Positions 7,326 to 64,000 of a stretch of 64,000 bases of DNA are shown piece after piece (the first letter of the stretch is position 1; each line of letters opens with the position of its first letter). The stretch is from a virus: the IMG/VR virus record IMGVR_UViG_3300045800_000023, positions 1 to 64,000 of that record; one strand, 5' to 3'. The notes beneath the pieces were generated by a model. It saw only the letters and a program-made list of their open reading frames with translations. It was not told where the DNA came from and did no database searches. The position numbers were made by a program, and so were the translations under genes.

Positions 7326-7609
7326 AATATTATCACATTGCGTTCAACACACCGTTGGGGCCTGGTACCTACTTCTACCGGGGCGAGAGTCATCCGTTCA
7401 TGCCAAAAGAGTACGATGAAAGAACGTCGAAGTTAGCTAATAGTTTGAGTATCCAATATGCTAAACAAATCAGCCCTACTTCAATTATTTATATGTCTGT
7501 TATTGAGCTGCCCATTGACGTAGCTAGGGCCAGGTGGCCAGAGGATTTTAAAAGGCCAGAACCCCTATATAACAATATTCTTCCTCCGATTCATTCTGCG
7601 GTGGGATAA
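7322..7609 (+). CDS. Hypothetical 95-residue protein
   Basis: Family not recognised. The ATG at 7322 is chosen over the GTG at 7313 because AGGTGG lies just upstream. The N-terminus reads MKYYHIAFNTPLG, suggesting a small globular enzyme-like or adaptor protein. The stop codon overlaps the next start (TAATG), indicating coupling to the damaged zinc-protein gene downstream. Confidence 0.55.
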   Translation: MKYYHIAFNTPLGPGTYFYRGESHPFMPKEYDERTSKLANSLSIQYAKQISPTSIIYMSVIELPIDVARARWPEDFKRPEPLYNNILPPIHSAVG

Positions 7610-7795
7610 TGAAAATACTATCCAAAGGTCTACCCTTGTAGAGAGTGCGGCCTGTTGCGGTCTCTCCCAAGTATTGCAGCCAATTGTAAACATGAAGTCT
7701 GGTCTAAGAAATTTAATTCGCCGCCGCGTGGATTTCCTCCCAAGATGCCTAAAATCGTTTCTGGTAAGTATTATCTGTCTCCGGTAAAGCTTTAG
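7609..7795 (+). pseudogene. Frameshifted small zinc-binding protein
   Basis: The ATG at 7609 overlaps the previous stop but hits a stop after 10 codons. If one A is removed from AAAA at 7612-7615, the frame continues for about 60 residues (MKYYPKVYPCRECGL, later ANCKHE) to the TAG at 7793, with a C-x-x-C...C-x-H zinc-ligand pattern. The downstream frame is open from 7613 and has no start codon of its own. This is either a true one-base insertion, a homopolymer sequencing error, or a frameshift site. Confidence 0.5.
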
Positions 7796-12651: not shown

Positions 12652-13479
12652 ATGGCCACTCCTGGGCTAGCTCCAAGAATCAACCCTATCACCTTTCCTA
12701 CCGCTAACAGCGTCGCTTTCGACCTAGACGCTTTCAATGACGGGATTAGGGCGCATGGGCTAAGGTTCGTCCACCTAAGGGCCCTTAGAGATCCAGTAGG
12801 ATTAATAGATCGTCATGACGCACGTAGACCTAATCCTGGCAGCAAGGAAGCCTTGAACGGTTGTATCCACACTAGGGCCGGTATTGTAAGAGCGTTGTGT
12901 TTAAGCAACACCAAAGAGGTCAAGGCTTCTGATGCCGGTCTTGTTGACAGCTCCCAAGCACAGTTTACCCCTCTTAGTCAATATGAAGACACGGGCAAAA
13001 GGGTCTTCCTAGCCCCGTATGACCGACTATTGTTAGAGGAAGAATCTGTATTGGTAACAAGGCATGAGTTGGTAGAGGCATCTCCTACTGGGGTTGATAG
13101 GCCTAAGTTCCCAGCTGTAGAAATATTGGATTGTGTTGACGCGCGAGGCCTTAGATATTACCAAGGTGACGATTTTGACATTACTCCAGACGGCCTAATT
13201 GTTTGGAAAAGTCGTCGGCCTGGACAAGAGATTGATACGGGTAAAGGTGTTGTTTTTGGCATTAGGTATGTGTATAGGCCGTTTTGGATTGTGGCCAGAA
13301 TGATTCATGAAATCCGCATGGTACAAACCGAAGTGTTTTTGACCGGTGAACGTAAGATGGTCCAGGCTCCTCAGTCAGCTCTAATCTATCGTGAGTTCTA
13401 TTTTGAGTCGGAAGCGGCAGATTCAGGTACCAGGGCGGCTGAAGAGGGCCCCTCGGATGGTCAAATTACTTCCCGATAG
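12652..13479 (+). CDS. Probable virion structural protein
   Basis: This 275-residue soluble protein has no signal peptide or membrane segment. It is rich in beta-prone segments, with a conserved-looking stretch FWIVARMIHEIRMVQTEV near residues 215-235. I do not recognise the family. The late-type promoter and tight spacing to its neighbours favour a neck, tail or capsid-accessory role over an enzyme. Confidence 0.5.
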   Translation: MATPGLAPRINPITFPTANSVAFDLDAFNDGIRAHGLRFVHLRALRDPVGLIDRHDARRPNPGSKEALNGCIHTRAGIVRALCLSNTKEVKASDAGLVDSSQAQFTPLSQYEDTGKRVFLAPYDRLLLEEESVLVTRHELVEASPTGVDRPKFPAVEILDCVDARGLRYYQGDDFDITPDGLIVWKSRRPGQEIDTGKGVVFGIRYVYRPFWIVARMIHEIRMVQTEVFLTGERKMVQAPQSALIYREFYFESEAADSGTRAAEEGPSDGQITSR

Positions 13480-13480
13480 C

Positions 13481-13486
13481 AATCTT
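13481..13486 (+). promoter_or_regulatory. Late-type AATCTT element with leader
   Basis: CAATCTT follows the TAG stop of the previous gene. Here a 20-base leader containing TTAGGAGA separates it from the ATG at 13507, so this transcript would not be leaderless. Confidence 0.45.
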
Positions 13487-13506
13487 GAGGTTAGGAGAAA
13501 CACAAA

Positions 13507-19603: not shown

Positions 19604-19702
19604 GGCGCTAGGTAGGACTTGAACCTACAACGGTCGTATTCGGACGAATTTTGACCATCCAGATTTTTCACTCTGGAGTGTTTACCCTTTCACCACTAGC
19701 GT
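19604..19702 (-). tRNA. tRNA-Phe(GAA) with 30-base variable arm
   Basis: The acceptor ACGCTAG/CTAGCGC pairs at 6 of 7 positions. The D-arm is GTG-N10-CAC, the anticodon stem CCAGA/TCTGG with an 8-base loop GTGAAAAA (GAA), and the T-arm GTAGG-TTCAAGT-CCTAC. The variable arm is about 30 bases and folds into two tiers: GGTC/GACC outside and ATTC-GTCC-GAAT inside. Confidence 0.7.
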
Positions 19703-50888: not shown

Positions 50889-51899
50889 CTAAAAAGTCAA
50901 CGGCTTCAGCCAAATATAAAGCTTCCCCTTCACCATAGGTTCAGCTGCTAAGATTGCCTTAAAGGCATCTTCCATGGACAAAGACCCAAGATCGACCTTG
51001 CCCTTTATTCTTTCGGGGAGTCGAATTAGACGAATGTCTACGCCATTTCCTAGCTTATCAAGTAGCGGGTCAAGTTCGGAAAATGCGTCGGGGTCTAGGC
51101 CCACATAGACGGTTTTGACGCCAGACCTAAGAAGAATCGCAACGTGGGCCGACGAGATAGCCTTCCCCATTGACGCAACGTTACCTTGATTAAAAAGGTG
51201 GCATTTTATACAGTCAATTGGCCCCTCACACAACACCGCCGCATCGGCCCCCTTCAGCCGGTTGGAAAACATAAACGCCTTGTCCCTAGGCAAATCAGGA
51301 GACGACCACGTTTTAGGCCTTTCTTTGATTACATCGTCAACTAGAACCCGGTTAGGATCTATTGTCCTGTACTGCCAACCCAGGAGGTCTGTCCCAACCT
51401 GCACTGGGAAGACCACAGCTCGATTCTGGGGTGAATATCTGATTCCGTAGAGGGTTGCTATCTCTAGGGGTATCCCACGGCCCTGTAGGTAGTCCTGGCC
51501 GCTTTTGGCGCCTGGTTCAACAATAGGTATACAATGGTAGGGCCATGTAAGTACAGGTAGTTTTTCCTCCTTAATCTCTTCATCTTCTTCCTGGTCAAGG
51601 AAATCTTTCATCTTTAGCTCAAGATACCCAGACCGTACTTGAGCCGACCCATACAAACTTTCCTTGACCTGTTCTAGCGGAAGGTCTGTCAGTTCAATTA
51701 TGGCATATTCAACATTGCCACCAAACCCCTTGTCAGTAACGCACCTAAAACACCTGAACCTACCATCACTTTTCCTAATGTATAATTTGTCCTTACCCCC
51801 GCACAAAGGACAATTGAACAAAAAGGACTTGGAGTTCTCATGAAAGGACAACCCCAAGTCCCTTATGTACTGTGCCAATTTGTTTGGCGACAGTTTCAT
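50889..51899 (-). CDS. DNA primase (zinc ribbon plus TOPRIM)
   Basis: This 336-residue protein has an N-terminal zinc ribbon (CPLCGGKDK...FRCFRC, residues about 30-55) like CHC2/T7-type primases and a TOPRIM domain with the acidic motif LCEGPIDCI and YVGLDPDAF. It makes RNA primers and probably pairs with the DnaB-type helicase downstream. It overlaps the recombinase stop by 1 base. Confidence 0.85.
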   Translation of the reverse strand: MKLSPNKLAQYIRDLGLSFHENSKSFLFNCPLCGGKDKLYIRKSDGRFRCFRCVTDKGFGGNVEYAIIELTDLPLEQVKESLYGSAQVRSGYLELKMKDFLDQEEDEEIKEEKLPVLTWPYHCIPIVEPGAKSGQDYLQGRGIPLEIATLYGIRYSPQNRAVVFPVQVGTDLLGWQYRTIDPNRVLVDDVIKERPKTWSSPDLPRDKAFMFSNRLKGADAAVLCEGPIDCIKCHLFNQGNVASMGKAISSAHVAILLRSGVKTVYVGLDPDAFSELDPLLDKLGNGVDIRLIRLPERIKGKVDLGSLSMEDAFKAILAAEPMVKGKLYIWLKPLTF

Positions 51900-53035
51900 T
51901 ATTCGTCGTCTTCAGGGGCTTCGAATTGCTGCTCGGCTACATGCTCTGGGATAACAATAGAACCAGTGGTCTTTTCTCGTTCCAACAACCCCGCCAGGAT
52001 AATCTTTTGTAAGTCTGGGCGTGTAGCTAAGGCATTTAAGACGGCAGGCTTGCCATTAAACTGTTCTGACCCGATTACATAAACCAGTTTATTGGGCCTA
52101 CCAATTACCCCCCAGTTCTTTCCTAGACGGAAGATTTCTTCATGTTGATTGACAAACCCTTTCGTATAGTCGAAGGTGGCCTCGGCTTGACGGTTAGCGG
52201 GACCAAGCGTATTCCCTGACATAAAGAATCGAATCTTGTGACCAGTACGTTCAGCACTGTCCTTGCCTTCTGACATGTCCAGCTTGGTTTCGTCAACTAA
52301 CTTGTTGTCCAGTTCATCAACATTACCGGTCTTGGTAACGTTGCGTTCCACGTTCAGGATGAATTCGCAGAGGTGCTTAACCGCCATGGCGGCTGCGGGC
52401 TTCTTCTTGTTGCCACGCATAATTTCGGCCTGGTCCATCTCGTCCCTGGCGTGGGCCGTAAGGTACAGGTGGATGCGGTTTTTAAACAACATCTCCCTCA
52501 TTGACTGGAGACCGATTTGGAGGGTCATTGCGTGGTCTCCAATTTGGAAATTGGAAACCGACTTCTGAACAGCTGTTCTACGCCCCATTAGCATCGAAAT
52601 CGAATCGATGCCCATAAGCTTGACGTTCCCTCCCTGTTGAATAATGTCCAGGACCTCACTGTTGATAAGGTCGAATACCTTTTCTGGCTTGTTTGTTTGA
52701 AACACGATATAGCGGTCAAGGTCGATTCCATAGGCGGCTGCATGTGCATCGTCCAGCTGACCATCATCTCGGAATTCGGTATCAAACTTGATGGCGATGG
52801 AGTCTTTCCACTTTTGGTGCATCTGACCAACCATGTCATAGAACAATACCGACTTACCTGCCTTTTGTTCTCCCCAAGCTAGCGTAGTATAGCCAAGAGG
52901 AATACCGTGATTTTTGCCCCATAGCCAATTAACCCCTGGGCTGGATGACCTCAATAGGTTGTCGGGGGCCCACACATCAAAGCGTTCAGTGACAGCGTTC
53001 TCTAGATTCCTTAACTTCATCGCGAATTTATTCAA
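51899..53035 (-). CDS. RecA/UvsX-like recombinase
   Basis: About 378 residues. GIPLGYTTLAWGEQKAGKSV gives the Walker A site, and MGIDSISMLMGRR Walker B with a downstream loop; QIGLQSMREML and YLTAHARDEMDQ follow. A UvsX/RecA-type strand-exchange role fits the context of primase, SSB and MazG-like genes. The TTG at 53035 is favoured because AGGAG lies 7 bases upstream; the ATG at 53020 is the alternative. The C-terminus is acidic (EAPEDDE). Confidence 0.8.
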   Translation of the reverse strand: MNKFAMKLRNLENAVTERFDVWAPDNLLRSSSPGVNWLWGKNHGIPLGYTTLAWGEQKAGKSVLFYDMVGQMHQKWKDSIAIKFDTEFRDDGQLDDAHAAAYGIDLDRYIVFQTNKPEKVFDLINSEVLDIIQQGGNVKLMGIDSISMLMGRRTAVQKSVSNFQIGDHAMTLQIGLQSMREMLFKNRIHLYLTAHARDEMDQAEIMRGNKKKPAAAMAVKHLCEFILNVERNVTKTGNVDELDNKLVDETKLDMSEGKDSAERTGHKIRFFMSGNTLGPANRQAEATFDYTKGFVNQHEEIFRLGKNWGVIGRPNKLVYVIGSEQFNGKPAVLNALATRPDLQKIILAGLLEREKTTGSIVIPEHVAEQQFEAPEDDE

Positions 53036-53045
53036 CTTCGTTCTC

Positions 53046-53120
53046 CTATCGTAATAGACAAAGGGCCAGAAAAATTGCCGCCAAGATGACAGCTCCACAA
53101 ACTTCCGCGTATTTTCTCAT
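53046..53120 (-). CDS. Tiny membrane protein, 24 residues
   Basis: MRKYAEVCGAVILAAIFLAL forms one transmembrane helix. The start overlaps the stop of the MazG-like gene (ATGA). Small, but its tight fit between coupled genes and clear hydrophobicity support it. Confidence 0.45.
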   Translation of the reverse strand: MRKYAEVCGAVILAAIFLALCLLR

Positions 53121-53488
53121 GCCAACTTACCGTGCATGTGCGGACGGGTTTTGTTGTATTCGTTTTTGAGGTGAATAGCCCGACCAATATCGATACCTAA
53201 AGCGTAAGCAGTGTCGAGCGCCCTAATCACAATGTCAGCCAGCTCCTCTTCCGCACAGGTAAGATTGCAGGCTTTGTCACATTGTTTGCCCAAGCTTCCC
53301 TTACGTGCAGCTTCCCACAATTCAGACACTTCACCATGTAGATTGGCACAAAACACGGCCATACGATCTAAGGTCACCGATTCGCCGTTCAACCTTGCAG
53401 AATATTCTGGGTGAAACCCTTTCTCCCAAGCTAATGTGTAAACTTCTCTGGCCACATCTGAAAATATCTGTTGTTCTGTGCTGTTCAT
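53117..53488 (-). CDS. MazG-like nucleotide pyrophosphohydrolase
   Basis: This 123-residue all-helical protein has HGEVSELWEAAR, then EEELADIVIRALDTAYALGID, and ends KNEYNKTRPHMHGK, the E-x-x-E and E-x-x-D metal-binding pattern plus C-terminal signature of MazG-like proteins. It hydrolyses NTPs to NMPs, possibly lowering dUTP or alarmone pools. It overlaps the upstream gene by 4 bases. Confidence 0.8.
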   Translation of the reverse strand: MNSTEQQIFSDVAREVYTLAWEKGFHPEYSARLNGESVTLDRMAVFCANLHGEVSELWEAARKGSLGKQCDKACNLTCAEEELADIVIRALDTAYALGIDIGRAIHLKNEYNKTRPHMHGKLA

Positions 53489-54054
53489 AGTGCTCTGAAT
53501 CCCGGTGGTAGGTCGTCATCCGACGATTTGACGATGGTTTTAGGAGCCGCGTATGGGTCTGGCCGATTAGCATCCCCATATTTCTGGCCAGGCAGGTTTC
53601 TGTCGCTTACCAATTTCTTGACGCTGTTGTAGGCGTTATAGAAGGCCTCCATTTTACCACGCAACGTGTCTAAAATAAAGGAAATTTCGTCCAATATGTC
53701 TTTTGTTGCTTGTACTTGAGGGTCTTTTTGAACAAAAGCAGCCCTTAGGTCGGCACTGGCTTTAGTATGTCCAAGTTTTTGTAAGGCCTCCTCAGTGCAG
53801 GCGAGTTTGGCGTCAGCAATTGCGTTTTTGTGATGGTTGTCGGCAATGTTCTTTTGGTAGGTCAATTGAGTAACAGACCTATTGAGCTTAAGCCACGTTG
53901 CGTTAAATGTAGACAACATCTCAGGAGCCGTAAATTGATTAACAATTGCGACGTCCTGAAGCCTCAGTTCAGCCTGTACAATTTCCTCAATGTTGATAGC
54001 AATCTTGGCCTTGCCATCCCCAGTAGGAACCATATAGTTCGTTTCTTCGTTCAT
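53485..54054 (-). CDS. Helical protein, possible recombination accessory
   Basis: This 189-residue, mostly helical protein has no recognised family. Its C-terminus ends DDDLPPGFRAL, and the SSB-like protein two genes upstream begins DDNELPPGF, a shared short motif. Lying between the recombinase and SSB genes, it could be a UvsY-like mediator; that is inference from position only. Confidence 0.55.
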   Translation of the reverse strand: MNEETNYMVPTGDGKAKIAINIEEIVQAELRLQDVAIVNQFTAPEMLSTFNATWLKLNRSVTQLTYQKNIADNHHKNAIADAKLACTEEALQKLGHTKASADLRAAFVQKDPQVQATKDILDEISFILDTLRGKMEAFYNAYNSVKKLVSDRNLPGQKYGDANRPDPYAAPKTIVKSSDDDLPPGFRAL

Positions 54055-54296
54055 ATATAGTGCTTTCTGTCGTCAACGATACCGTCTATGTAGGGCCCAG
54101 AAGGCCAATTTAGCTGGTAGCGGGTGATACATGTGCTATCCATTTCGTAAGATGGCCAGTGAACAGACACGGCGGATACAATATCTCCTGTTTTTTGATT
54201 TGCCCATTGATGTGGTGTTCCGAGATACTTCCAGTTGCCATCTGGAAATATTTGACGCAATTGATCAATAATTCTAATACGTTTTAGCATAATCAA
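54051..54296 (-). CDS. Hypothetical 81-residue protein
   Basis: Begins MIMLKRIRIIDQLRQIFPDG, soluble and basic. No family recognised. It lies just downstream of the SSB terminator hairpin and overlaps the next gene by 4 bases. Confidence 0.5.
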   Translation of the reverse strand: MIMLKRIRIIDQLRQIFPDGNWKYLGTPHQWANQKTGDIVSAVSVHWPSYEMDSTCITRYQLNWPSGPYIDGIVDDRKHYI

Positions 54297-54342
54297 AAGA
54301 AAGGCTAGCCAGAGACGAAAGGAGCACCGCCCCTGGCTAGCT
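54289..54342 (-). terminator. Intrinsic terminator after the SSB-like gene
   Basis: On the minus strand GCTAGCCAG, a 20-base loop and CTGGCTAGC form a perfect 9-pair stem, followed by CTTTCTTTTG. It lies 11 bases after the SSB stop and would limit read-through into the downstream recombination genes. Confidence 0.65.
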
Positions 54343-54352
54343 GTATTAGTTG

Positions 54353-55381
54353 TTAACCCCAGAGATCGTCGTAGTTCGCTGCTGGAGCGGCCTTAGGTGC
54401 TTCTGCGGGTGTAGGAGCCGGGGCTGGCTTAGGGGCCTCCGCTGGGGCTGCCTGGGCCGCTGGAGCGGGTGTGGGGGCTGGGGCTACAGACGCACCGCTG
54501 GGGACAGCACCAGTGTAATCGACTTCCTCGTCGACCGGTTCGTCGTTCTTCTTGCCAATCTCAAGAATCCGGTCCACTTCTACAGGGTCGGGGCTACCCT
54601 TGCCAAGCTTGTCTAGCTCTACCAAGGCTACTATCTGGTCTACCCGAATAAGGTTCTGGTTCTTTAGGGTCACCAGGTCGGGAAGACGATTGGAGGCTTC
54701 GATAAGCTGCTCATTTGAAATTCGGTAGACATCCTTGATTTCGGAGCCGTCTTTCTGGACAATCCGGTTGACGACCGCCTTGTCAGAGGTAGGGGACGCC
54801 TTGCCGGTGCGGATAAACCGGAACCAAACTCCCTTACGGCCAGCTGGCTTAATAAGCTCGTCAGTCCCAGGGTAAGTTTGCTTGCGTAGCTCTTTCATCT
54901 CAGCCTTTAGGCTCTTGACGAAGTTGTAAGGGGCGTGGAAGATACCGAATTGCCCTTGCTTATTCATAACAGGGATGCGGAACTTGCCGTCGAGGCCGTG
55001 GGCATCCTTCCAGGCAAGGAGCTGTTTTCCTCGTTCAGAAGTGGGGTCAGCGGCCTTTAGCTTATCAATGAATGGGGTGCGGTATGTACAAACCGGACAC
55101 TCAGTGCTAATAATACCGTAGTTCTTTTCCTGGATACATAGGAACGGATGGTAAGCCTTCTTGGAGGGGTCCTTTGCGTTGACTCCATTCCAGCCATAGT
55201 GAAGTGCCCAATACAGACCGATATCATCAATCTGTAGCATCGACTTCATTGCTGGAAGGACAAGAAGGAGGTGTTCGTCTGTCTCACCGTCCTTAATGTT
55301 CTTGAACTTCCAATTTTCGTACTTCTGGGTAGACCCGCTTGGGTCTGCAAATCCTGGGGGTAGCTCGTTGTCGTCACTCAT
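54353..55381 (-). CDS. Single-stranded DNA-binding protein (gp32-like)
   Basis: This 342-residue protein has a core with HPFLCIQEKNYGIISTECPVCTYRTPF (zinc-type cysteines) and basic patches, then a Pro/Ala-rich flexible linker (residues about 295-335) and an acidic aromatic tip DDLWG. That organisation is typical of SSB/gp32 proteins, where the tip recruits partners. It lies upstream of recombinase, primase and helicase and ends in a strong terminator, so it may be expressed at high level. Confidence 0.7.
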   Translation of the reverse strand: MSDDNELPPGFADPSGSTQKYENWKFKNIKDGETDEHLLLVLPAMKSMLQIDDIGLYWALHYGWNGVNAKDPSKKAYHPFLCIQEKNYGIISTECPVCTYRTPFIDKLKAADPTSERGKQLLAWKDAHGLDGKFRIPVMNKQGQFGIFHAPYNFVKSLKAEMKELRKQTYPGTDELIKPAGRKGVWFRFIRTGKASPTSDKAVVNRIVQKDGSEIKDVYRISNEQLIEASNRLPDLVTLKNQNLIRVDQIVALVELDKLGKGSPDPVEVDRILEIGKKNDEPVDEEVDYTGAVPSGASVAPAPTPAPAAQAAPAEAPKPAPAPTPAEAPKAAPAANYDDLWG

Positions 55382-55630
55382 TTACTTCTTCTCCTTTTTG
55401 GTTTTCTTCTTCGGTTTTAGGTCTTCGACCTTATTCTTTGCTTCTCGGGCCTCTTCGCCCATTTTGAATTCTGGGTATGTGGCGGCAAAATCAACAGGGG
55501 ACATCCCAAGGAAGTCATAGCGAACGGAAAGAATCTCCTCCAAATACTCCTTGCGTTCTTTATCCGGCATCTTCCCCAGCTCGTAAATGAACGAGTAAAT
55601 CCTGGGTTGGCTATCAGTCAGTTTGTTCAT
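55382..55630 (-). CDS. Hypothetical 82-residue protein
   Basis: Helical protein with a lysine/glutamate-rich C-terminus (LKPKKKTKKEKK). No family recognised. It directly precedes the SSB gene in the operon and overlaps the upstream gene by 17 bases. Confidence 0.55.
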   Translation of the reverse strand: MNKLTDSQPRIYSFIYELGKMPDKERKEYLEEILSVRYDFLGMSPVDFAATYPEFKMGEEAREAKNKVEDLKPKKKTKKEKK

Positions 55631-56354
55631 CTACCACCTTCTTTTGTTCCTTGAACAATGAAACGATTTTAGCTACCGTTGGGTCGAAATCCTTAGGAAA
55701 CGTAAAGTCAATCGACTTGTTGAACAATGTTGCAATCGCGTTTCGTTCATCTACAGATCCGACACCAACAACCATAACCGGGATCTTCTGCGAGTCGATC
55801 TGTTCTCGTACTATAACATCCAAGATGCTCTTTGTCAACAAATCAATGTTGGCTTGGTCTCCTACTCGACACTCTCTCAGGATCCTGCGAATGTGACCTA
55901 AAGTTGCAGCCGTATCAGGGCAAGTAGTTTCCCGATGTTTAGGAGCTTCGATTTCCAAATAGCCCAGGTCAATAGCAATGCTAGTGATTTTTTGGATCAT
56001 TAGGTGGAACTGGGTAGAACAAAACACCCGATCCCGAGAATAAGAAGGCTCTACCAGGTCAGTGACCGACCGGTACATTTGAGCGGCGTCTAAGACAATA
56101 CCTTCGTTCTTGGTCAACAACTCAGCCGTCTTATCAATAGACGTCTTGTCACCGCTTGCGAACAGCCCTACCAGCTTGCTCGGGATAACGATAGACTTCA
56201 TTTCGTCTAGAAGCTTGGGCAATCGCTCCGAGGCCTGAATCATCGCCATCTGTACAGCGGGCCTGGCAGTGTAATGAACAGCTTCAATCTCTTGGGACAC
56301 TACCCTGGTGGTCTCTTCTACGTCTTTACTAACTTCGGCCAATGTTCTACTCAT
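55614..56354 (-). CDS. Hypothetical 246-residue protein
   Basis: Soluble, helical in the first 130 residues (MSRTLAEVSKDVEETTRVV), alpha/beta after that (KIPVMVVGVGSVDERNAI). No recognised family or catalytic motif. Located between the polymerase C-half and SSB genes, so a replication-associated role is plausible. Confidence 0.55.
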   Translation of the reverse strand: MSRTLAEVSKDVEETTRVVSQEIEAVHYTARPAVQMAMIQASERLPKLLDEMKSIVIPSKLVGLFASGDKTSIDKTAELLTKNEGIVLDAAQMYRSVTDLVEPSYSRDRVFCSTQFHLMIQKITSIAIDLGYLEIEAPKHRETTCPDTAATLGHIRRILRECRVGDQANIDLLTKSILDVIVREQIDSQKIPVMVVGVGSVDERNAIATLFNKSIDFTFPKDFDPTVAKIVSLFKEQKKVVDEQTD

Positions 56355-56562
56355 GGATCTCCTTTAACAGTTGTAATACATATTCTTGCAATTCGGTGTT
56401 ATCGGGTGGTGTTGCTTCTTGCTGACACGACTTACCAATAAGGCCTTCTAGAAAGACCAGGTGCTTGTCCTGGTGCGCTAGTAATTGTAGGCTGGCTTCA
56501 AGCTGCTTCGACAATAGCCTGACCTGCTTCTCCAGGCGCTGTTCTTTACTTAGAGTCTTCAT
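56347..56562 (-). CDS. Hypothetical coiled-coil 71-residue protein
   Basis: MKTLSKEQRLEKQVRLLSKQ... predicts a leucine-patterned coiled coil. It overlaps both neighbours (8 and 17 bases). Function unknown. Confidence 0.5.
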   Translation of the reverse strand: MKTLSKEQRLEKQVRLLSKQLEASLQLLAHQDKHLVFLEGLIGKSCQQEATPPDNTELQEYVLQLLKEIHE

Positions 56563-56860
56563 CGGGCCTCGAATGGTTCTTTAGGTCGTCTAGGGTAAAC
56601 TCATTGTCGGCCCAGAGAACTCCCTGGATAAAGCCCAGCCACCTCATAGCCTTCTCGATTCTTCCTTCGTCTACAAACTTCTGTGCTTCTTGACACATGA
56701 AGAGAAAGTGAGAAACCTGAGCGTCAGTATTGATAAAAGCGACAAAAGAGCTTGATTCGCCTAGATTCATTTGTTTAGGCTTTACACCACTGGCAGCCCA
56801 CCTTTCTTCAATGTGCTTGAAATAGTATTCAAATACCGACTTAAGCTTTTCCTTCGTCAT
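56546..56860 (-). CDS. Hypothetical 104-residue protein
   Basis: Acidic helical protein (KLKSVFEYYFKHIEERWAAS). No family recognised. It overlaps the end of the polymerase C-half gene by 20 bases. Confidence 0.5.
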   Translation of the reverse strand: MTKEKLKSVFEYYFKHIEERWAASGVKPKQMNLGESSSFVAFINTDAQVSHFLFMCQEAQKFVDEGRIEKAMRWLGFIQGVLWADNEFTLDDLKNHSRPDEDSK

Positions 56861-59117
56861 CTTTCACCTTTTCTACGGGTCCTCGAATCAATTGCAACTT
56901 CCTGAAGCTCCAGCCCTTGTTCAAATCTGTCTTGGTAATTACACCAACAATGACCGACCCTTCCTGTAAGTTTTTCACTTCTGCCGGGAATCCCCCATCT
57001 TGATTCGGCCAGTATACCACCTCAGACTTGAATCCGCAAGCGTCAATGAAGATCTTTTTGGCGGTCTTGGACTTGTTTTGGTAGGAGAACGACTCGATAC
57101 TATCCACATGTGCTACAATGGCGCACTTGAACCCACCTTGTGGCAATTCCACAGCTGTGTTCATGTCGATAAGATCACCCAGACCGACCAGCCTATCACA
57201 ACAAGGAACCTCTTCTCTCGCCTCTCGGCTCCAAGCTGTGTAAGTATAATACAAGCCCCCATTTGTGTCTTCGATGAAGGCATTTGTCTCCATCATATCA
57301 CGGATATCCTCCGAATACGCAGGTAAAACAGACTTCTTGACCTGGAACCTCCCCAATGCGTCTAACGTTGGGTATTGGGCTTTGGACTTATTGTACTTTT
57401 TTCCAGCTTCCAGCGTATACTTCTTGAGGAGCTCTTGATATTCGTCCAGGCGTTCATTGACAGTTGTATTGGGGTCGAACAAGGTGTCTAAAATTCCTGA
57501 GACAAACAAGGTATGCATGGTTCCAATGGTAATTGCACTTCGTCGCCATTTTCCATCTGCTTCCCCAGCTTTACGATACTCCACAATTTTCTTGCAGAAA
57601 TCGTCAGCTGATTCGTACGGGGCCCCTTCATTCAATTGTGCCTGGGCGGTCTCCCCAATCCCGTAGCAAATATCAATAGGGGCCCTGATACGGTCTCCTA
57701 CAATGGCCCAATTTTCCTTAGACAGCTTGATGTCTGGCAAGTCTACGATACTTTCGACATATGGCCAGAATTTTGAATAGATTTCGTCTTTCTTAGCGTT
57801 CTGAAGGACGCTGCACCACCATTCAAGAGGGTAATAGTGCTTGAGCCAGGCGCAGGCGTAGGAAATAACAACGTACCCAACCGCGTGAGCTTGACAAAAT
57901 GAGTACGCGGAAAATTCTAGTAAGCCAGCCCACACTTCTTTTGCCTTGTCTAACCCAATTTTAGACGCAGCCCGTTCAATGAAAAACGTGTAAAGTTTTG
58001 CCATTTCTTCTGGCTTCTTCTTGGCTGACAGCCGACGAAAGGCCTCAGCTTCACCGCCTGTACAGCCGGTCAACCCCTGGTAGACCTTCTGTAACCCCTC
58101 CTGAAACACAATTAGACCGTAGGTTTCAGGAAGCAAATCGTCAAATATCGGAAGGACGTCTTTGCTTCCTACCAACCCCCGAATGCGTCTTGCGTATTCT
58201 ATAAGTAAATTGTGTTTTTGACTAGGGGCTTCAGGGTTGCTCACCATGAAGTTAAGTGGTCCTGGTCTATCTAGAGCCGTAAAGGCAGCCATTGCAGCAA
58301 TGCTGTTAATACCAGGTGTTCCATCTGGTCGAGTATGGTTAAATTGCTTTAGCCACTGAATTGCTGATGGGGTATTGTACTGAAAAACCGTCTCAGTCTT
58401 CCCTTGGCTAATGTCCTTGTACACCTCTAGGTCGCTGGGGAGGTCCCAGATATCGACGAAGCTTTTTGACACAGGGTCCAGTACCAGTCTGTGCCTTGGC
58501 ACCCTTCGACCATTGACCGTCTGTTCTTTGGGAGACAGCCCCTCTTCTTTGTCGGCAATTAGCCGCAGACACGATTGGATATCTTTGAGGCACGCCACAA
58601 CAAGAAAATCAAATTTCAATGCTCCTACGTTTTCAATTTCGCTCCCTGTAAAGGCAGTCACCTTAACATTTGATATGGTAGTAATAGGGATGAAGTCACT
58701 GATTGGCTTAGGAGCGATTACAAAGGCCGAAGCGTGTCTCCCTCTTTGACGCGGCAATGCAAGAGCCGCCTTTGCTATTTCCCACTGTTCAGGGTACTTG
58801 GCTATGTAGGCTTGTAAGGCGGGGTCTCTTTCGATACTTCCTTGGTGGTTCCCTTCGTCATCAGACCACCCCATGATAAATTTGATGTCCGAAAGCCCTT
58901 GTGGAGGCATCTCGAATTTCTTAGCAAGTTCTTCAATGTCTTGAGGAACCGATCCGAAGGTAAAGCGCGCTACGTCTTTTACACTGTTCTTCAGTTTCAG
59001 TGTGGTCAAAACACTTACCTGAGCCTGACAGTCTCCAAACCTTTCCTGGAGCCAACCTGGGAAATACGGCTTAAGGGTGCCGTCTTGGGAGCTATTTGTC
59101 ATTTTCGTGAATTTCAT
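56841..59117 (-). CDS. DnaE-type DNA polymerase III alpha, C-terminal half
   Basis: This 758-residue protein continues the catalytic domain of bacterial PolIII alpha from just after the PDxDxDF site: RFGDCQAQVS...KDVARF, ALDRPGPLNF, ETYGLIVFQEGLQKVYQ, GEAEAFRRLSAKKKPEEM and FCQAHAVGYVVISYACAWLKHYYP, then fingers and OB-like regions. It cannot work alone because the catalytic PDVDLDF lies in the gene at 59791. The start MKFTKMTNSS has no obvious intein C-domain. Its TATAAT box ends 9 bases before the ATG. Confidence 0.88.
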   Translation of the reverse strand: MKFTKMTNSSQDGTLKPYFPGWLQERFGDCQAQVSVLTTLKLKNSVKDVARFTFGSVPQDIEELAKKFEMPPQGLSDIKFIMGWSDDEGNHQGSIERDPALQAYIAKYPEQWEIAKAALALPRQRGRHASAFVIAPKPISDFIPITTISNVKVTAFTGSEIENVGALKFDFLVVACLKDIQSCLRLIADKEEGLSPKEQTVNGRRVPRHRLVLDPVSKSFVDIWDLPSDLEVYKDISQGKTETVFQYNTPSAIQWLKQFNHTRPDGTPGINSIAAMAAFTALDRPGPLNFMVSNPEAPSQKHNLLIEYARRIRGLVGSKDVLPIFDDLLPETYGLIVFQEGLQKVYQGLTGCTGGEAEAFRRLSAKKKPEEMAKLYTFFIERAASKIGLDKAKEVWAGLLEFSAYSFCQAHAVGYVVISYACAWLKHYYPLEWWCSVLQNAKKDEIYSKFWPYVESIVDLPDIKLSKENWAIVGDRIRAPIDICYGIGETAQAQLNEGAPYESADDFCKKIVEYRKAGEADGKWRRSAITIGTMHTLFVSGILDTLFDPNTTVNERLDEYQELLKKYTLEAGKKYNKSKAQYPTLDALGRFQVKKSVLPAYSEDIRDMMETNAFIEDTNGGLYYTYTAWSREAREEVPCCDRLVGLGDLIDMNTAVELPQGGFKCAIVAHVDSIESFSYQNKSKTAKKIFIDACGFKSEVVYWPNQDGGFPAEVKNLQEGSVIVGVITKTDLNKGWSFRKLQLIRGPVEKVKDDEGKA

Positions 59118-59126
59118 GAAGACCTC

Positions 59127-59135
59127 ATTATAGCA
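59127..59135 (-). promoter_or_regulatory. Extended -10 promoter of the polymerase C-half
   Basis: TGCTATAAT on the minus strand is an extended -10 box without a clear -35. The -10 box ends 9 bases before the ATG at 59117. Confidence 0.5.
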
Positions 59136-59159
59136 TGCCGAACAACTTGGGGGAACAAC

Positions 59160-59165
59160 AATCTA
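59160..59165 (+). promoter_or_regulatory. Late-type AATCTA element of the HNH gene
   Basis: CAACAATCTA lies exactly 6 bases before the ATG at 59172, one base different from the AATCTT consensus. Confidence 0.45.
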
Positions 59166-59171
59166 TAGTGT

Positions 59172-59840
59172 ATGCAAACTTTTCCAAAAACAGAAAACAA
59201 ACCCTGTACAAAATGCAATATTGAGAAACCCTTCTCTGAATTCTTCAAAGATCCTAGGGCCAAAGACGGAAGGAGGTCGGAGTGCAAAAAATGCTCACAA
59301 AAAGACTCCTTAAGATGGGGCCAGGAACACCCAGACAAGAGAGCAGAAATCTGGAAAAAGTGGAATGACAAAAACCCAGGAGGAGGCGCACTTAGAGCAA
59401 AAAGATGGAGAGAAGAGCACCCAGGAGCCAGGGCCACCTATATGAGAAACAGATACAAAACAAATCCGGTTCACAGAATAGTTACTATCATGAGATCTGC
59501 TCAAAAAAGAGCACTTAACGGTGCGTCTAGAGCGGGGAAGACTCTAGATCTCCTGGGGTGTTCAGTTGAACACGTAAAGGAGTTAACCGAGGCCTTGTGG
59601 TGGCCAGGAATGGACTGGAGCAACCAGTCTCGCCATGGGTGGCACTGGGACCACATCCTGCCCCTTGACAGCTTTGATTTATCAAACCCAGAACAGCAAA
59701 AAATTGCATTTCACCATATGAATCTGCAACCCCTGTGGGCAGACGACAACTTAAAAAAACACAGCCGACTCGATTGGACTCCAGCTGAATCTAAACACCC
59801 GCTTCCGGAACGGCTAAAGCACTTTGCCACCAAGGTGTAA
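59172..59840 (+). CDS. HNH homing endonuclease-like gene between polymerase halves
   Basis: This 222-residue paralogue of the gene at 42538 has an N-terminal finger CTKCNIEKPFSEF...CKKC, a basic linker and the HNH-like core WHWDHILPLDSFDLSN...HHMNLQPLWADDNLKKH. It is on the opposite strand, exactly between the two polymerase gene halves, and overlaps the N-half 3' end by 50 bases. This placement is typical of a homing endonuclease associated with a fractured gene. Confidence 0.82.
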   Translation: MQTFPKTENKPCTKCNIEKPFSEFFKDPRAKDGRRSECKKCSQKDSLRWGQEHPDKRAEIWKKWNDKNPGGGALRAKRWREEHPGARATYMRNRYKTNPVHRIVTIMRSAQKRALNGASRAGKTLDLLGCSVEHVKELTEALWWPGMDWSNQSRHGWHWDHILPLDSFDLSNPEQQKIAFHHMNLQPLWADDNLKKHSRLDWTPAESKHPLPERLKHFATKV

Positions 59841-61581
59841 ACTCAACCCCAGCCGACACAACCTCTTTGATTGGTAAAAGCCCTTGCTCAGTTTCCACCA
59901 CAAATCCATCGGGCAGAATGTGCTTCGTTCCGTCGTCCGCTTCAACCTCAATCACCTCACACTCTTTCCCACAAAGCAAATCCCTGTTGGAAAAGTCCAG
60001 GTCCACGTCGGGCATGGTGTGAGATTTGATGCGGTCAAGAGTAAGAAACCTGTCTAGACTAAGCCCGTATTGAATAGGATCAATCGAGGTGATGCCCAAT
60101 AGATAAGACAGCAAAACTCCCCCAGCTGATCCTCGTGAGCTGCCAACAAGCACCCCTTGGTTTTCATACACTCTACACTGCTCCTCACAGGTGAAGAAAT
60201 AGGGCAATAGATCTACCGTTCCATTACGATGAAACAGCTGTATTTCTTGCTTGAGCCTGGCGACATACCTGGGGTCGTCCTTGGGCATTCTTCCGTGTTT
60301 GTCAATCAGCGTCTTGGTATGGGCAAGTGTATCTTGTGGATAGAATTTTGTCGGCAACTGCAACGTGCTGTCAAACTTGAAGTCCTTAAATAGGTCCCTA
60401 AAGGAATAGCTGTTGTCAACCCAAGACTCGAATTCCTTTTCAGAAACATTGTGTTTTTGTTTGAAGTGAGTAAAGGCCTCGCCACTTGACATCCTGTGGT
60501 ACGAGGAAAAGAACCGCCAATCCCCCATTTGAGAGAGCTTTACGTCCTGAACAATTTTCATATCTTTTGACGCAAAGTGACAGTCGTCACTAACCAATAT
60601 GGGCAACTTGTGCTTCTTGGCCATGCCCATCATAAACACGTTCACTCCCCACTGAAGGTCACCGTCAGGAGCGGCGGGACTACACTCATTGACAATGAAT
60701 CCCTCCTGTTTGCGTACACTAACAATCGGAAGAGGGAACTCCACATCTTGCCAGGTATGAAAATTCTTAATAGCAAGAAGTGTCAACTTCTTCTTATCGT
60801 TCCATTTGTCGGCCAGCTCTTCGGCTTTAACTTCACCTTCTTCTGTCTTTAGGGTCTTCCCATAATAAAACTTCAAGGTCTTCTTGACATCACCGGCCCC
60901 CACCTCGATGAATACCCCCTTGGAGTATTCCCTGTCACATACGTGAGGAAAAACCTCGACAAACATCCTGTCTCCAAATAGATGGTGAAGCCTTTTAAAA
61001 TAGGCCTTGGCTGCGCCTACCTTCACTTCTGGAGAGCTTTCGGTGTTGATTAGGTGTCTGGCTATCATTCCGACGAGGCAGCCAGCGCCTATCGTTGTTT
61101 TGGTGGCTGCCAGCTCTTCAAGGTCTGACCAGTCAAACAAAGGCTTTCTCTCTGAACCATGGGTTTCTGCCCGGTCATCGGCCTTGGATAGAAGCTTGAC
61201 CCCCTTAAGGTATGCTTCATAATTCTGAAAACCTAACGTGATATGGTAATATTTGTTGTACGAATAGAAACTACCGGTTGGATGTTCCAGTTTCCACTTT
61301 TCTTTGTCCATCCCCCTAGGCACAACGTCGGTCTTAGGCACTCCAAGCTTTGTCAAAATTGGACAGTCATCCGACCTAAAATAAGCCTCAATCCCTGAAA
61401 TGGCGATTAGTCCATTCTTTTTTGCTAAAGACGAAATCCTGTAGATAGCAGAAAGGCTACCGTGATCCGTGGCGGTTATTGCCCCCGTTTCCAGTTCCAG
61501 TTCTTTAATACAGAAAGCCTCAGGAGTTGAAGCGGAGTCCAATGACATTACGTGGCAATGTGGCGTCACAAAATTACGCAT
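59791..61581 (-). CDS. DnaE-type DNA polymerase III alpha, N-terminal half with intein-like tail
   Basis: About 596 residues from the ATG at 61581 (AGGAAAGAAAC upstream). The PHP domain opens TPHCHVMSLD with ATDHGSL. The palm has GSSRGSAGGVLLSYLLGITSIDP and the catalytic MPDVDLDF. Right after NRDLL come 60 residues starting with Cys (CGKECEVIEVEADDG, then FVVETEQGLLPIKEV), resembling an intein N-terminal block. The rest of the polymerase is in the gene at 56841. The two products must associate or be trans-spliced. Confidence 0.85.
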   Translation of the reverse strand: MRNFVTPHCHVMSLDSASTPEAFCIKELELETGAITATDHGSLSAIYRISSLAKKNGLIAISGIEAYFRSDDCPILTKLGVPKTDVVPRGMDKEKWKLEHPTGSFYSYNKYYHITLGFQNYEAYLKGVKLLSKADDRAETHGSERKPLFDWSDLEELAATKTTIGAGCLVGMIARHLINTESSPEVKVGAAKAYFKRLHHLFGDRMFVEVFPHVCDREYSKGVFIEVGAGDVKKTLKFYYGKTLKTEEGEVKAEELADKWNDKKKLTLLAIKNFHTWQDVEFPLPIVSVRKQEGFIVNECSPAAPDGDLQWGVNVFMMGMAKKHKLPILVSDDCHFASKDMKIVQDVKLSQMGDWRFFSSYHRMSSGEAFTHFKQKHNVSEKEFESWVDNSYSFRDLFKDFKFDSTLQLPTKFYPQDTLAHTKTLIDKHGRMPKDDPRYVARLKQEIQLFHRNGTVDLLPYFFTCEEQCRVYENQGVLVGSSRGSAGGVLLSYLLGITSIDPIQYGLSLDRFLTLDRIKSHTMPDVDLDFSNRDLLCGKECEVIEVEADDGTKHILPDGFVVETEQGLLPIKEVVSAGVEFTPWWQSALAVPEAGV

Positions 61582-61620
61582 TGTTTCTTTCCTACCTTCC
61601 AAAAGTGGACAAAGCCACAC

Positions 61621-61629
61621 ATTATACCA
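61621..61629 (-). promoter_or_regulatory. Extended -10 promoter of the polymerase N-half
   Basis: TGGTATAAT on the minus strand, with no good -35 box; it precedes the ATG at 61581 by 39 bases. Confidence 0.45.
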
Positions 61630-61671
61630 CGACCAAGGCCGGAAGTCGCCCTGGTCGCAGGTTAACTCCTC

Positions 61672-61840
61672 TTACAAAATATGTTCGTTAACAACCCAAG
61701 CGAAAACGGGGATCCCTAGAATGCTAATAACGCGCCAAACACGGATATAGTGAATGGTCTTGCTAGTTTGCGTTCTCCAGGAATAGGTCCGCTCTTTGGC
61801 AAACTTCCAGATATCGACTGTAATCAACTGTAATCAACAT
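61672..61840 (-). pseudogene. Small membrane-protein gene broken by a 10-base duplication
   Basis: A frame of 51 codons (LITVDIWKFAKERTYSWR..., ending with the hydrophobic VISILGIPVFAWVV) runs to the TAA at 61672. The ATG at 61840 is out of frame with it. Removing one copy of the 10-base tandem repeat at 61817-61836 restores one ATG-initiated frame. A TTG at 61827 could still start the protein. Confidence 0.55.
61817..61836. repeat. 10-base tandem duplication
   Basis: ACTGTAATCA occurs twice in direct succession at the 5' end of the small gene read on the minus strand, shifting its frame. Confidence 0.85.
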
Positions 61841-61842
61841 TG

Positions 61843-62046
61843 CTAAAACTCCTTCGCGAGAATCTTAATTTTCTCCTCGATGTGGTCGCGAATCTTACCT
61901 AACTCACTTAGCTCGCGTTCCTTTTCTTGAAGCTGAGACGTAAGCACGCCGATTTGTCGCTCGATATCTTTAATGGTAATATTCCTTCGGTCCCTGTCAG
62001 ATGTCAACCGATGCAACTTGTCAAACTTGTTTTCTTCACTGTCCAT
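61843..62046 (-). CDS. Coiled-coil protein, 67 residues
   Basis: The ATG at 62046 overlaps the previous stop (TAATG), with AAAGGA upstream. The sequence from DIERQIGVLTSQLQEKER on is a predicted coiled coil. Function unknown. Confidence 0.55.
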   Translation of the reverse strand: MDSEENKFDKLHRLTSDRDRRNITIKDIERQIGVLTSQLQEKERELSELGKIRDHIEEKIKILAKEF

Positions 62047-62213
62047 TACTTCATAATCCTTTCTATAGCAGATGCCAAGCAAATCCAATTTACTGCCACA
62101 AGAATTGAATAGAACAAGGACCAACCATATTTGCGTTTAGAAAGACTAAGTATCGTTAAGAAGACGCACCACACCATAACCGCAATGCCAAAAATGATTC
62201 GAAAAGTCAACAT
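62046..62213 (-). CDS. Small membrane protein, 55 residues
   Basis: Two hydrophobic helices (IIFGIAVMVWCVFLTILSL and LFYSILVAVNWICLASA) joined by a basic loop. Start and stop both overlap neighbours by TAATG. Function unknown. Confidence 0.55.
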   Translation of the reverse strand: MLTFRIIFGIAVMVWCVFLTILSLSKRKYGWSLFYSILVAVNWICLASAIERIMK

Positions 62214-62377
62214 TACTTGCCTCCCAAAACGACAGCAATTCCAAAAAGCAAGTTAACGATTCCGGTACAGCCCAACAAAATAGCTGGCCACAGGTTGTCT
62301 TTCTTGAGGTGGTGAACCGCCAAGCAGAGCCCGGCTGATGCCAAAAACGAATCGATAATCAACTGAGTTACATTCAT
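62213..62377 (-). CDS. Small membrane protein, 54 residues
   Basis: MNVTQLIIDSFLASAGLCLA and WPAILLGCTGIVNLLFGIAV form two helices. GCAGGA precedes the ATG at 62377, which overlaps the upstream stop. Part of a run of coupled membrane-protein genes. Confidence 0.55.
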   Translation of the reverse strand: MNVTQLIIDSFLASAGLCLAVHHLKKDNLWPAILLGCTGIVNLLFGIAVVLGGK

Positions 62378-62547
62378 TAGAAAATCCTGCTTTCTTCCCA
62401 GGCATCTTCGAACTGGGAGACAAAACAGTAACACAATAGTCCGTACAAAGCAAACCCTAAAAGGTCTCCTTCGCAAAAATGACAAATTGACGCGCAGCCA
62501 AAAAAGGCTGACAAGAACCCGTTAACGCAGTTAGAAATTGTCTTCAT
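62377..62547 (-). CDS. Small cysteine-rich membrane protein, 56 residues
   Basis: MKTISNCVNGFLSAFFGCAS, then HFCEGDLLGFALYGLLCYCF: hydrophobic, with six cysteines. The stop overlaps the next ATG. Function unknown. Confidence 0.5.
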   Translation of the reverse strand: MKTISNCVNGFLSAFFGCASICHFCEGDLLGFALYGLLCYCFVSQFEDAWEESRIF

Positions 62548-62554
62548 CCGTGTA

Positions 62555-62764
62555 CTATAGCCGAAACCCGGCTCTAAGTACAGAGATAATTTTCTGATAA
62601 CGAATTTCTACTTCTTCTTCGGGGATTTCTAGGGCCCGAGCTATGACGTGTGTCGGAGCGCCCTCTGGGTAGCGCTTTTCTAACGCAGCGATACTGTTGT
62701 TATAGCGCTTAATAGCTATATAATCCGGTAAGGTAGCTAACATGTCTTGTACATCTTGTGTCAT
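62555..62764 (-). CDS. Small helix-turn-helix-like protein, 69 residues
   Basis: APTHVIARALEIPEEEVEIRY resembles a helix-turn-helix of sigma-factor region 4 type, preceded by a short helix. It could be a small regulator. No family firmly recognised. Confidence 0.5.
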   Translation of the reverse strand: MTQDVQDMLATLPDYIAIKRYNNSIAALEKRYPEGAPTHVIARALEIPEEEVEIRYQKIISVLRAGFRL

Positions 62765-63151
62765 TTAGCTGCCGGTTAGCTTCAGTATGTTGTCATCTGC
62801 CTTTGTAAATTGTGAACTGAGTTGTTCGTAAAACTTTTGCCCCCGCTCCTGCGCCAAGGACAACTTGTTGAGGTTAGCTTGCAAGACTTGCCGGTGGGTC
62901 TGGGCCTGTTCATAGAACTTTTCCAAGGTCTCAACATCCTTTCGAGCCGCAACAAACTTCGCTATTTCTACTAATCCTATCGCTTTACATCCCCTAGCCC
63001 TCTTCCTGGCTTCCTCCAGTCCTTCCCCAGTCGTTAGCTCTGTAGATAACGCTTTCCCGACTTCAAATGACATAGCCTGAATCTGTACCTCAAGCGTCTT
63101 CAACCCCTCAAACACTACCCCCATCCTGGTTTGAATTTCGAATGGAGTCAC
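62765..63151 (-). CDS. Hypothetical helical 128-residue protein
   Basis: Long helices with heptad-like patterning (MSFEVGKALSTELTTGEGLEE...). Its start overlaps the stop of the phosphoesterase gene by 4 bases. Function unknown. Confidence 0.5.
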   Translation of the reverse strand: MTPFEIQTRMGVVFEGLKTLEVQIQAMSFEVGKALSTELTTGEGLEEARKRARGCKAIGLVEIAKFVAARKDVETLEKFYEQAQTHRQVLQANLNKLSLAQERGQKFYEQLSSQFTKADDNILKLTGS

Positions 63152-64000
63152 AGCCCCTCAAAAGGCTTGATTATATCATTGTATCTAGGATCGGTTTCTG
63201 CTCCGTCCACAACAACAAATCTCTGATCTCCAACAGCGTGTCCTGCGACAGACTCAAACAACCATTGTCCACAGGTGTTATCAGGGTTGCCTATACTCAA
63301 ACTAAAGTGGTCAACGGGGACCAAGCACCCGTTGGTTATCATTGATACATTTCCTGGCAACATAGTTAGACTTCCTGTATGTACGTGCCCAACGGCAAAA
63401 ACAGAGAACGGCCCTCCAACATTTCTAGCTGTGTTCCACTTACTTACCTGCTGGGCCAGACTCGCTATATTGATTGAGCGCCCCGGATACCCAGGCTTGA
63501 GTACTCCGTCACCGTGTGTGGAAAACATCTTTGCGTCAAAAAGCTGTGTCACACAATATGGGGTTTTAGGTATGTTAATTTTGCAGTTTTCAATTCCGGA
63601 ATTCCTAATAGCCGTCTTACAGGCAATGTAGATCATACTCTCTATGCTGTCATATTTTTGGACAACCGCTCTTTCCGGATGTCGAGACATGTTTCTACCG
63701 TGGTTGCCAGTCTGACAATGAACTTCGACACTTGAATAACAGCTTGACCAGTACATCAAAATTTGGTTTAAATAATGAACAGCTGCCGCAAATTGAATAG
63801 CCAACGGCTCGCCATCTCTTTGGTCGTGGAGTTGCCCTTGAATGATATCTCCAAGAAGGTAAACATTTAAACGAGTTTCTGGGCGGTACTGTGTTTTGTA
63901 TTCGGCTACTTGCTGAGCAACTCGTCCTAGCCTGCGGCTTTCTTGGATCGTGTTGTACTCAAAAGGACACTCTTCTGGGGATAGGTGTGACCCAAAATGA
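63148..64000 (-). CDS. Calcineurin-like phosphoesterase, 5' end outside the window
   Basis: The frame stays open to the window edge. Motifs in order: HFGSHLSPEE (end of the first metal motif), LLGDIIQGQLHDQ, TGNHGRN, STHGDG and VGHVHTG, matching phage DNA-repair-exonuclease-like metallophosphoesterases. Substrate not determined. It heads an operon of small genes. Confidence 0.8.
   Translation of the reverse strand, partial: HFGSHLSPEECPFEYNTIQESRRLGRVAQQVAEYKTQYRPETRLNVYLLGDIIQGQLHDQRDGEPLAIQFAAAVHYLNQILMYWSSCYSSVEVHCQTGNHGRNMSRHPERAVVQKYDSIESMIYIACKTAIRNSGIENCKINIPKTPYCVTQLFDAKMFSTHGDGVLKPGYPGRSINIASLAQQVSKWNTARNVGGPFSVFAVGHVHTGSLTMLPGNVSMITNGCLVPVDHFSLSIGNPDNTCGQWLFESVAGHAVGDQRFVVVDGAETDPRYNDIIKPFEGL

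Follow-up and report, generated by a model that had tools for sequence, protein, structure and literature searches.

A phage DNA polymerase III alpha subunit split within the palm, with junction segments that resemble part of a DnaE-type split intein

Genes that are broken at a split intein and have a free-standing homing endonuclease between their parts were reportedly described as fractured genes by Dassa et al. in 2009. In the Npu and Ssp split DnaE inteins (PDB 4kl5, 4qfq and 1zde), the DnaE host is likewise carried by two genes. With regard to phages, PolB of phage MIJ3 is an example of a fractured gene, for which intein blocks A, B, F and G are reported (PMC6892783). For gp43A and gp43B of Aeromonas phage 25, co-purification and polymerase activity have been reported, and the split Aeh1 NrdA (mobE) is active as two polypeptides; how the halves assemble is an open question for both enzymes, and the nuclease may have entered an already split gene (PMC2988022). 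Here, we describe a split gene for the alpha subunit of DNA polymerase III (DnaE) in a stretch of 64,000 nucleotides, hereafter the window, which covers positions 1 to 64,000 of IMG/VR virus record IMGVR_UViG_3300045800_000023. Two minus-strand genes, 59791-61581 (N-half) and 56841-59117 (C-half), make up this DnaE. We consider that the residues flanking the break, a tail on the N-half and a head on the C-half, probably represent a decayed split DnaE-type intein kept as a non-covalent clasp of a two-subunit polymerase, and assign this reading a probability of roughly 0.72. The features concerned are as follows.

59791 to 61581, minus strand: DnaE N-half gene, encoding PHP and the beginning of the polymerase domain, with an intein-like tail at its end; ATG at 61581, reading frame open from 61620.
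56841 to 59117, minus strand: DnaE C-half gene, encoding the rest of the polymerase domain, the fingers and the C-terminal region; 758 residues.
59123 to 59126, minus strand: GAGG, seen in the sequence just upstream of the C-half ATG and likely to be the ribosome-binding site of that gene.
59995 to 60003, minus strand: DLD of the PDVDLDF motif in the N-half, seen in the sequence and aligned with unsplit homologues.
58608 to 58610, minus strand: Asp of the KFDFL motif in the C-half, column D170 of an alignment.
59827 to 59973, minus strand: 49-residue segment of the N-tail, CGKEC to WW, which appears Hint block-B-like from the alignment, PDB profile matches and predicted fold.
59911 to 59913 (P) and 59902 to 59904 (F), minus strand: PxxF of the N-tail, in place of TxxH in the tail alignment.
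59791 to 59826, minus strand: lineage-specific end of the N-tail in the tail alignment, QSALAVPEAGV plus stop, which overlaps the 3' end of the HNH gene in antisense.
59058 to 59117, minus strand: C-head MKFTKMTNSSQDGTLKPYFP, 20 residues ahead of GWLQERFGD, with a predicted beta strand and corresponding to the start of a C-intein.
59172 to 59840, plus strand: free-standing HNH endonuclease gene of the endonuclease VII type, 222 residues with the frame intact, related to phage endonuclease VII families.

The first-pass annotation of this DNA had placed the break after PDVDLDFSNRDLL, with the N-half running on for 60 residues from a Cys and the C-half starting MKFTKMTN-SSQDG before GWLQERFGD. 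The open reading frames agree with all of this, and domain matches continue across the halves: the N-half contains PHP (PF02811) and positions 20-111 of the DnaE catalytic domain PF07733, and the C-half resumes the same Pfam domain at positions 120-259, with the fingers domain PF17657. Over both halves, Pfam and NCBIfam thus recover the PHP, catalytic and fingers domains of a DnaE, and the three catalytic Asp are present. The catalytic Asp of E. coli DnaE to which they correspond are D401/D403 for the DLD of PDVDLDF and D555, the third, for the Asp in KFDFL. The break lies inside the palm, between the DxD motif in the N-half and the third Asp in the C-half, and because it separates PDVDLDF from the KFDFL Asp, the polymerase active site is shared between two chains. 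When both halves were joined in a read-through model, a DnaE fold was predicted (predicted local distance difference test, pLDDT, 84), with a Foldseek expectation value (E) of 6e-43 to the DnaE structure 4iqj.

When IMG/VR was scanned with both halves and with junction profiles, the same DnaE break, with homologous N-tail and C-head, was found in 13 other lineages, all of them uncultivated contigs (L004, L005, L006, L031, L033, L034, L038, L120, L132, L135, L139/L144, L150 and L168; L139 and L144 are counted as one), which brings the total to 14 with the window. The N-tail comprises about 50 residues after DLL/EPL, and the C-head about 12-25 residues before the GWL helix. Since break, tail and head recur together in this way, they are not due to chance. 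Unsplit homologues have only a short loop at the break site, such as DLLVNEENGWL or DLLIDFL, and neither tail nor head, so that the alignment that the first-pass annotation had asked for leaves the tail outside normal polymerase sequence. Myxococcus phage Mx1 and the IMG/VR phages L028, L007, L009 and L039 belong to the same polymerase family and carry DnaE as one gene with a loop of a few residues; in L028, the N-half region is nevertheless 76% identical to that of the window. Tails were detected in none of 84,980 prokaryote genomes and in none of the INPHARED phages.

Both segments evolve as protein. The differences between the window and L004, its closest split relative, are distributed over codon positions 1/2/3 of the tail as 11/6/37, and this excess at position 3 indicates that the tail is protein-coding. 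The pN/pS ratio (non-synonymous to synonymous differences) is 0.21 for the tail and 0.13-0.15 for the core in this pair, and 0.32 and 0.29-0.31, respectively, between L005 and L006; for the tails of L033 and L034, the corrected dN/dS is 0.17 and pN/pS 0.43. These figures are rough because synonymous sites are near saturation. Across the main group of nine lineages, residues E13, D18, G19, P25, F28, E31, T32 and G35 of the tail are invariant, as are M1, K2, T7, G13, G21 and R26 of the head in eight of the nine. The residues expected of a splicing intein behave differently. Tail position 1, where the nucleophile of a splicing intein would be Cys or Ser and sometimes Ala, reads C, C, V, V, E, A, V, V and V in the main group, and T is also seen elsewhere; the block-B T-x-x-H is replaced by an invariant P-x-x-F in these nine lineages and by other letters, never T-x-x-H, in the remaining ones. 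Head positions 8-9, where block G would place its terminal Asn ahead of Cys, Ser or Thr, are NS, NN, RT, RS, AR or others: the Asn-Ser at the expected place had been pointed out earlier for the window, where it is indeed present, and it is not conserved in the relatives. The block A segment and blocks F/G are wholly missing from tail and head.

With regard to origin, a profile built from eight tails was searched blind against 177,635 distinct PDB sequences, and eight DnaE inteins ranked first (E 0.002-0.02). With 13 tails and all PDB sequences, 14 DnaE inteins came out on top in one register (E 7.6e-4 to 4.4e-3), and a hand-made control profile of reversed tails retrieved no intein from the PDB (best E 0.68). 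Single tails matched no family in Pfam, NCBIfam or PHROGs, while the same Pfam scan does recover the true inteins of L004 and L031. Within DnaE inteins, the tail aligns best with the half that contains block B (Npu residues ~52-98), and not with block A as first suggested. Block A gives a weak match in second place, perhaps because the Hint fold is internally symmetric.

The tail and head were also modelled together with AlphaFold2, on the sequence of L033 with the stop TAG read as a residue. The model (pLDDT 68) has strands in both parts, which are the same in the joined-halves model, and its Foldseek matches are nearly all inteins. The best structural alignment is with the Npu DnaE intein 4kl5_A (Z 8.0, root-mean-square deviation 2.0 over 62 residues), in which residues 17-83 of this pLDDT-68 model align to Npu 52-114, about half a Hint fold. 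The natural break of the Npu intein, which we take to be at residue 102/103, falls inside the aligned range, and tail and head would for this reason correspond to the interlocking core of the N- and C-intein. A Z of 8 alone is middling; the predicted intein-like fold is credible because the blind sequence search agrees.

The locus can now be compared with the systems mentioned above. As in Npu and Ssp, DnaE is encoded by two genes; residues ~52-98 of the N-intein are matched by the tail, and the beginning of the C-intein by the head. In contrast to these inteins, the phage gene is split in the palm loop after DxD, at another insertion site (the cyanobacterial intein site presumably differs from the palm loop), and block A, TxxH, F/G and the terminal Asn are missing, so that splicing is not expected. 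Fractured genes resemble it in that the break in the host gene falls at a conserved site and is flanked by intein pieces, and in the HNH gene that occupies the gap in the window, L135 and L139; unlike MIJ3 PolB, the DnaE split has lost intein blocks A, B, F and G, and most lineages lack the HNH gene. As for gp43A/B and Aeh1 NrdA, two polypeptides are predicted to rebuild one enzyme. Unlike those B-family polymerase and reductase cases, the phage DnaE appears to have an intein-derived clasp, conserved across many lineages. Our literature search, thin on subscription journals, found no description of a split intein that had been retained as a clasp in a non-splicing state.

The mechanism that we propose starts from a split DnaE-type intein at the palm loop. 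Its first ~51 residues, with block A and the nucleophile, and its last residues, with blocks F and G and the Asn, would have been lost, and the block-B Thr/His replaced. The retained portion would be the region where N- and C-intein fragments interlock; no longer able to splice, tail and head would bring the two chains together non-covalently, and the polymerase would then fold across the interface without ligation, giving an active two-subunit enzyme with no ligated product. Intein ancestry rests on modest E-values plus a model of moderate confidence, and several observations weigh against it. The first non-intein match of the 13-tail profile has an E of 0.008, so that the intein similarity is modest in sequence; the divergent tails, used as a subset, retrieve DnaE inteins at E 0.02-0.05, outranked by chance tudor-domain matches; a C-head profile had no match in the PDB; AlphaFold was trained on a set that includes inteins; and among the relatives, none was found to carry an intact intein capable of splicing at this break site.

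These points bear on the origin of the clasp, and one may ask whether tail and head form a docking module of independent origin that is merely like half a Hint domain. E-values of only ~1e-3, the lack of every catalytic residue in the tail, and the internal symmetry of Hint, by which a single subdomain could look similar, are compatible with such convergence; we nonetheless regard it as unlikely, since the top sequence matches are all DnaE inteins specifically and in one register, the tail/head break falls about where the natural intein break does, and true inteins occur in the same gene of relatives. That the element is instead an unconventional split intein, still able to trans-ligate the halves by means of non-standard nucleophiles, seems very improbable. 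The window does have Cys at tail position 1 and the head Asn-Ser, the predicted fold is intein-like, and naturally split inteins are known to trans-splice, but Cys 1 and Asn-Ser are not conserved in the other split lineages, TxxH is absent, and neither splice junction can form because tail and head lack the ~51 residues with block A as well as the terminal blocks F/G. Of the two readings offered by the first-pass annotation, an atypical but splicing split intein and a relic leaving a two-subunit polymerase, the former is not supported, given the variability or absence of Cys 1, the block-B Thr/His and Asn-Ser across the 14 split lineages, and the latter is supported by a tail that is intein-like in sequence and predicted fold and has lost both intein ends.

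Joining of the halves into one chain by an intron, a frameshift or stop readthrough could be envisaged from the short overlaps of 4-29 nucleotides in several lineages and from the single in-frame TAG of L033; against this, an antisense HNH gene of ~650 bp separates the halves in the window, 1.25 kb of genes in L031 and a 163-residue reading frame in L038, there is no intron family match, and tail and head evolve as protein, so that we give this explanation very little credit. Since whole genes stand between the halves in some lineages, no single recoding event could join them, and the halves are separate products. Least probable of all is that one or both halves are decaying pseudogenes and that another polymerase replicates the phage: the 66 kb contig is possibly incomplete and leaves room for a second polymerase, but both halves are open, show purifying selection in the window/L004 comparison (pN/pS 0.13-0.15) and on deep branches, and keep the catalytic Asp.

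The decayed-intein reading leaves the part played by the HNH gene to be considered. As noted at first pass, this gene lies in the gap on the other strand, as an intact reading frame that overlaps the last 50 nucleotides of the N-half gene. The seam is variable: it consists of a 4-nucleotide ATGA overlap in L004, L150 and L168, of TAGGATG in L005, and of overlaps of 20 and 29 nucleotides in L006 and L120, respectively; the genes abut in L034, an in-frame TAG is followed by a TTG start in L033, and L038 and L031 have a 163-residue reading frame and several small ones across 1.25 kb, respectively. HNH genes lie on the sense strand in the seams of L135, L139 and, in a shortened form, L144, and on the antisense strand in the window; the seams of L004, L005, L006, L033, L034, L120, L150 and L168 have none. 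The HNH gene is therefore not an obligate part of the split arrangement, and that of the window sits in a break which its nearest relative has without it, as the 4-nucleotide overlap of L004 shows. HNH genes may have made the original break or have arrived later. An Rfam scan of the window returned tRNAs only, with no group I intron match in the seam. In L005, two relatives of the window HNH protein (38% and 34% identity) are encoded outside the seam, at 3342-4037 and 12940-13500 (minus strand), one of them just upstream of the N-half gene. In Bacillus phage KLEB27-3 (L124, 4780-5433), DnaE is annotated as two coding sequences with an HNH gene between them, with no Rfam intron match.

Separate trees of the N- and C-halves agree in placing nine split lineages in one group, which includes the unsplit L028, nested among them with full support in both trees (site 7489-7614). 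This nesting points to re-fusion or replacement in L028: apparently, either a split gene was re-fused and tail and head were removed exactly, or recombination replaced it. In a wider tree, the split occurs in four places (the main group, L132 with L139/L144, L150, and L135), and well-supported branches force at least four changes between the split and unsplit states; the element was therefore gained several times, moved, or was repeatedly lost. The scattered distribution and the repeated seam HNH genes would fit a mobile-element family that splits essential genes at the active site and persists without any splicing. Its two-part half-Hint clasp, tail and head, would let the broken enzyme re-form non-covalently, an HNH gene in the seam would accompany it when mobile, and the element would have passed from phage to phage in the non-splicing state. 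We put this scenario forward only tentatively and hold it to be doubtful.

Genuine inteins are present at other sites of the same polymerase gene in L031, L004, L026, L046, L048, L132 and L150, so that invasion of this gene by inteins is common. L004 (4340-5690) has a full intein with LAGLIDADG at GSSRG^SAGG, a site also occupied in L026; L046 has a full intein at SDDC^HFT, and L048 and L055 have full inteins at other polymerase sites. The C-half of L031 (8705-9081) carries a mini-intein of ~128 residues, with the Npu DnaE intein as its closest PDB match, at the fingers site used in L139/L144/L150 (AAYGFN/CLYED...VAHN/CSHATAY). The C-half inteins of L139 (6850-8050), L144 (6670-8090) and L150 (6400-7860), inserted at YGFN^SHA and ending TSN/S, are open in the polymerase frame throughout and contain, in a different frame, a nuclease-like reading frame of 271-353 residues with a WVEVDGFFHF motif. 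The nested frame is 48-56% identical between them, compared with 31-41% for the overprinted intein linker, and is possibly a homing endonuclease carried out of frame within an intein.

In other respects, positions 51899-63804 of the window form a replication neighbourhood that by eye resembles that of Myxococcus phage Mx1, with a similar order of phosphatase-like, polymerase, SSB-like and RecA-like genes. A sixth tRNA-like match (19604-19702; Rfam, 36.6 bits), missed by ARAGORN, lies beside tRNA-Asn and tRNA-Tyr.

Split inteins are usually viewed as splicing devices, whereas here the chemistry would have been lost and the ability to join chains kept. A non-splicing clasp of ~49+20 residues could serve as a dimerisation tag, and the trio formed by the window, L004 and L028 (split, split and unsplit) offers a natural experiment. 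In the replicative polymerase of this phage, the catalytic aspartates are divided between two chains; if the proposed reading is true, it would illustrate how a selfish element can give rise naturally to a stable two-subunit enzyme, which bears on the question of how split phage enzymes such as gp43A/B and NrdA assemble.
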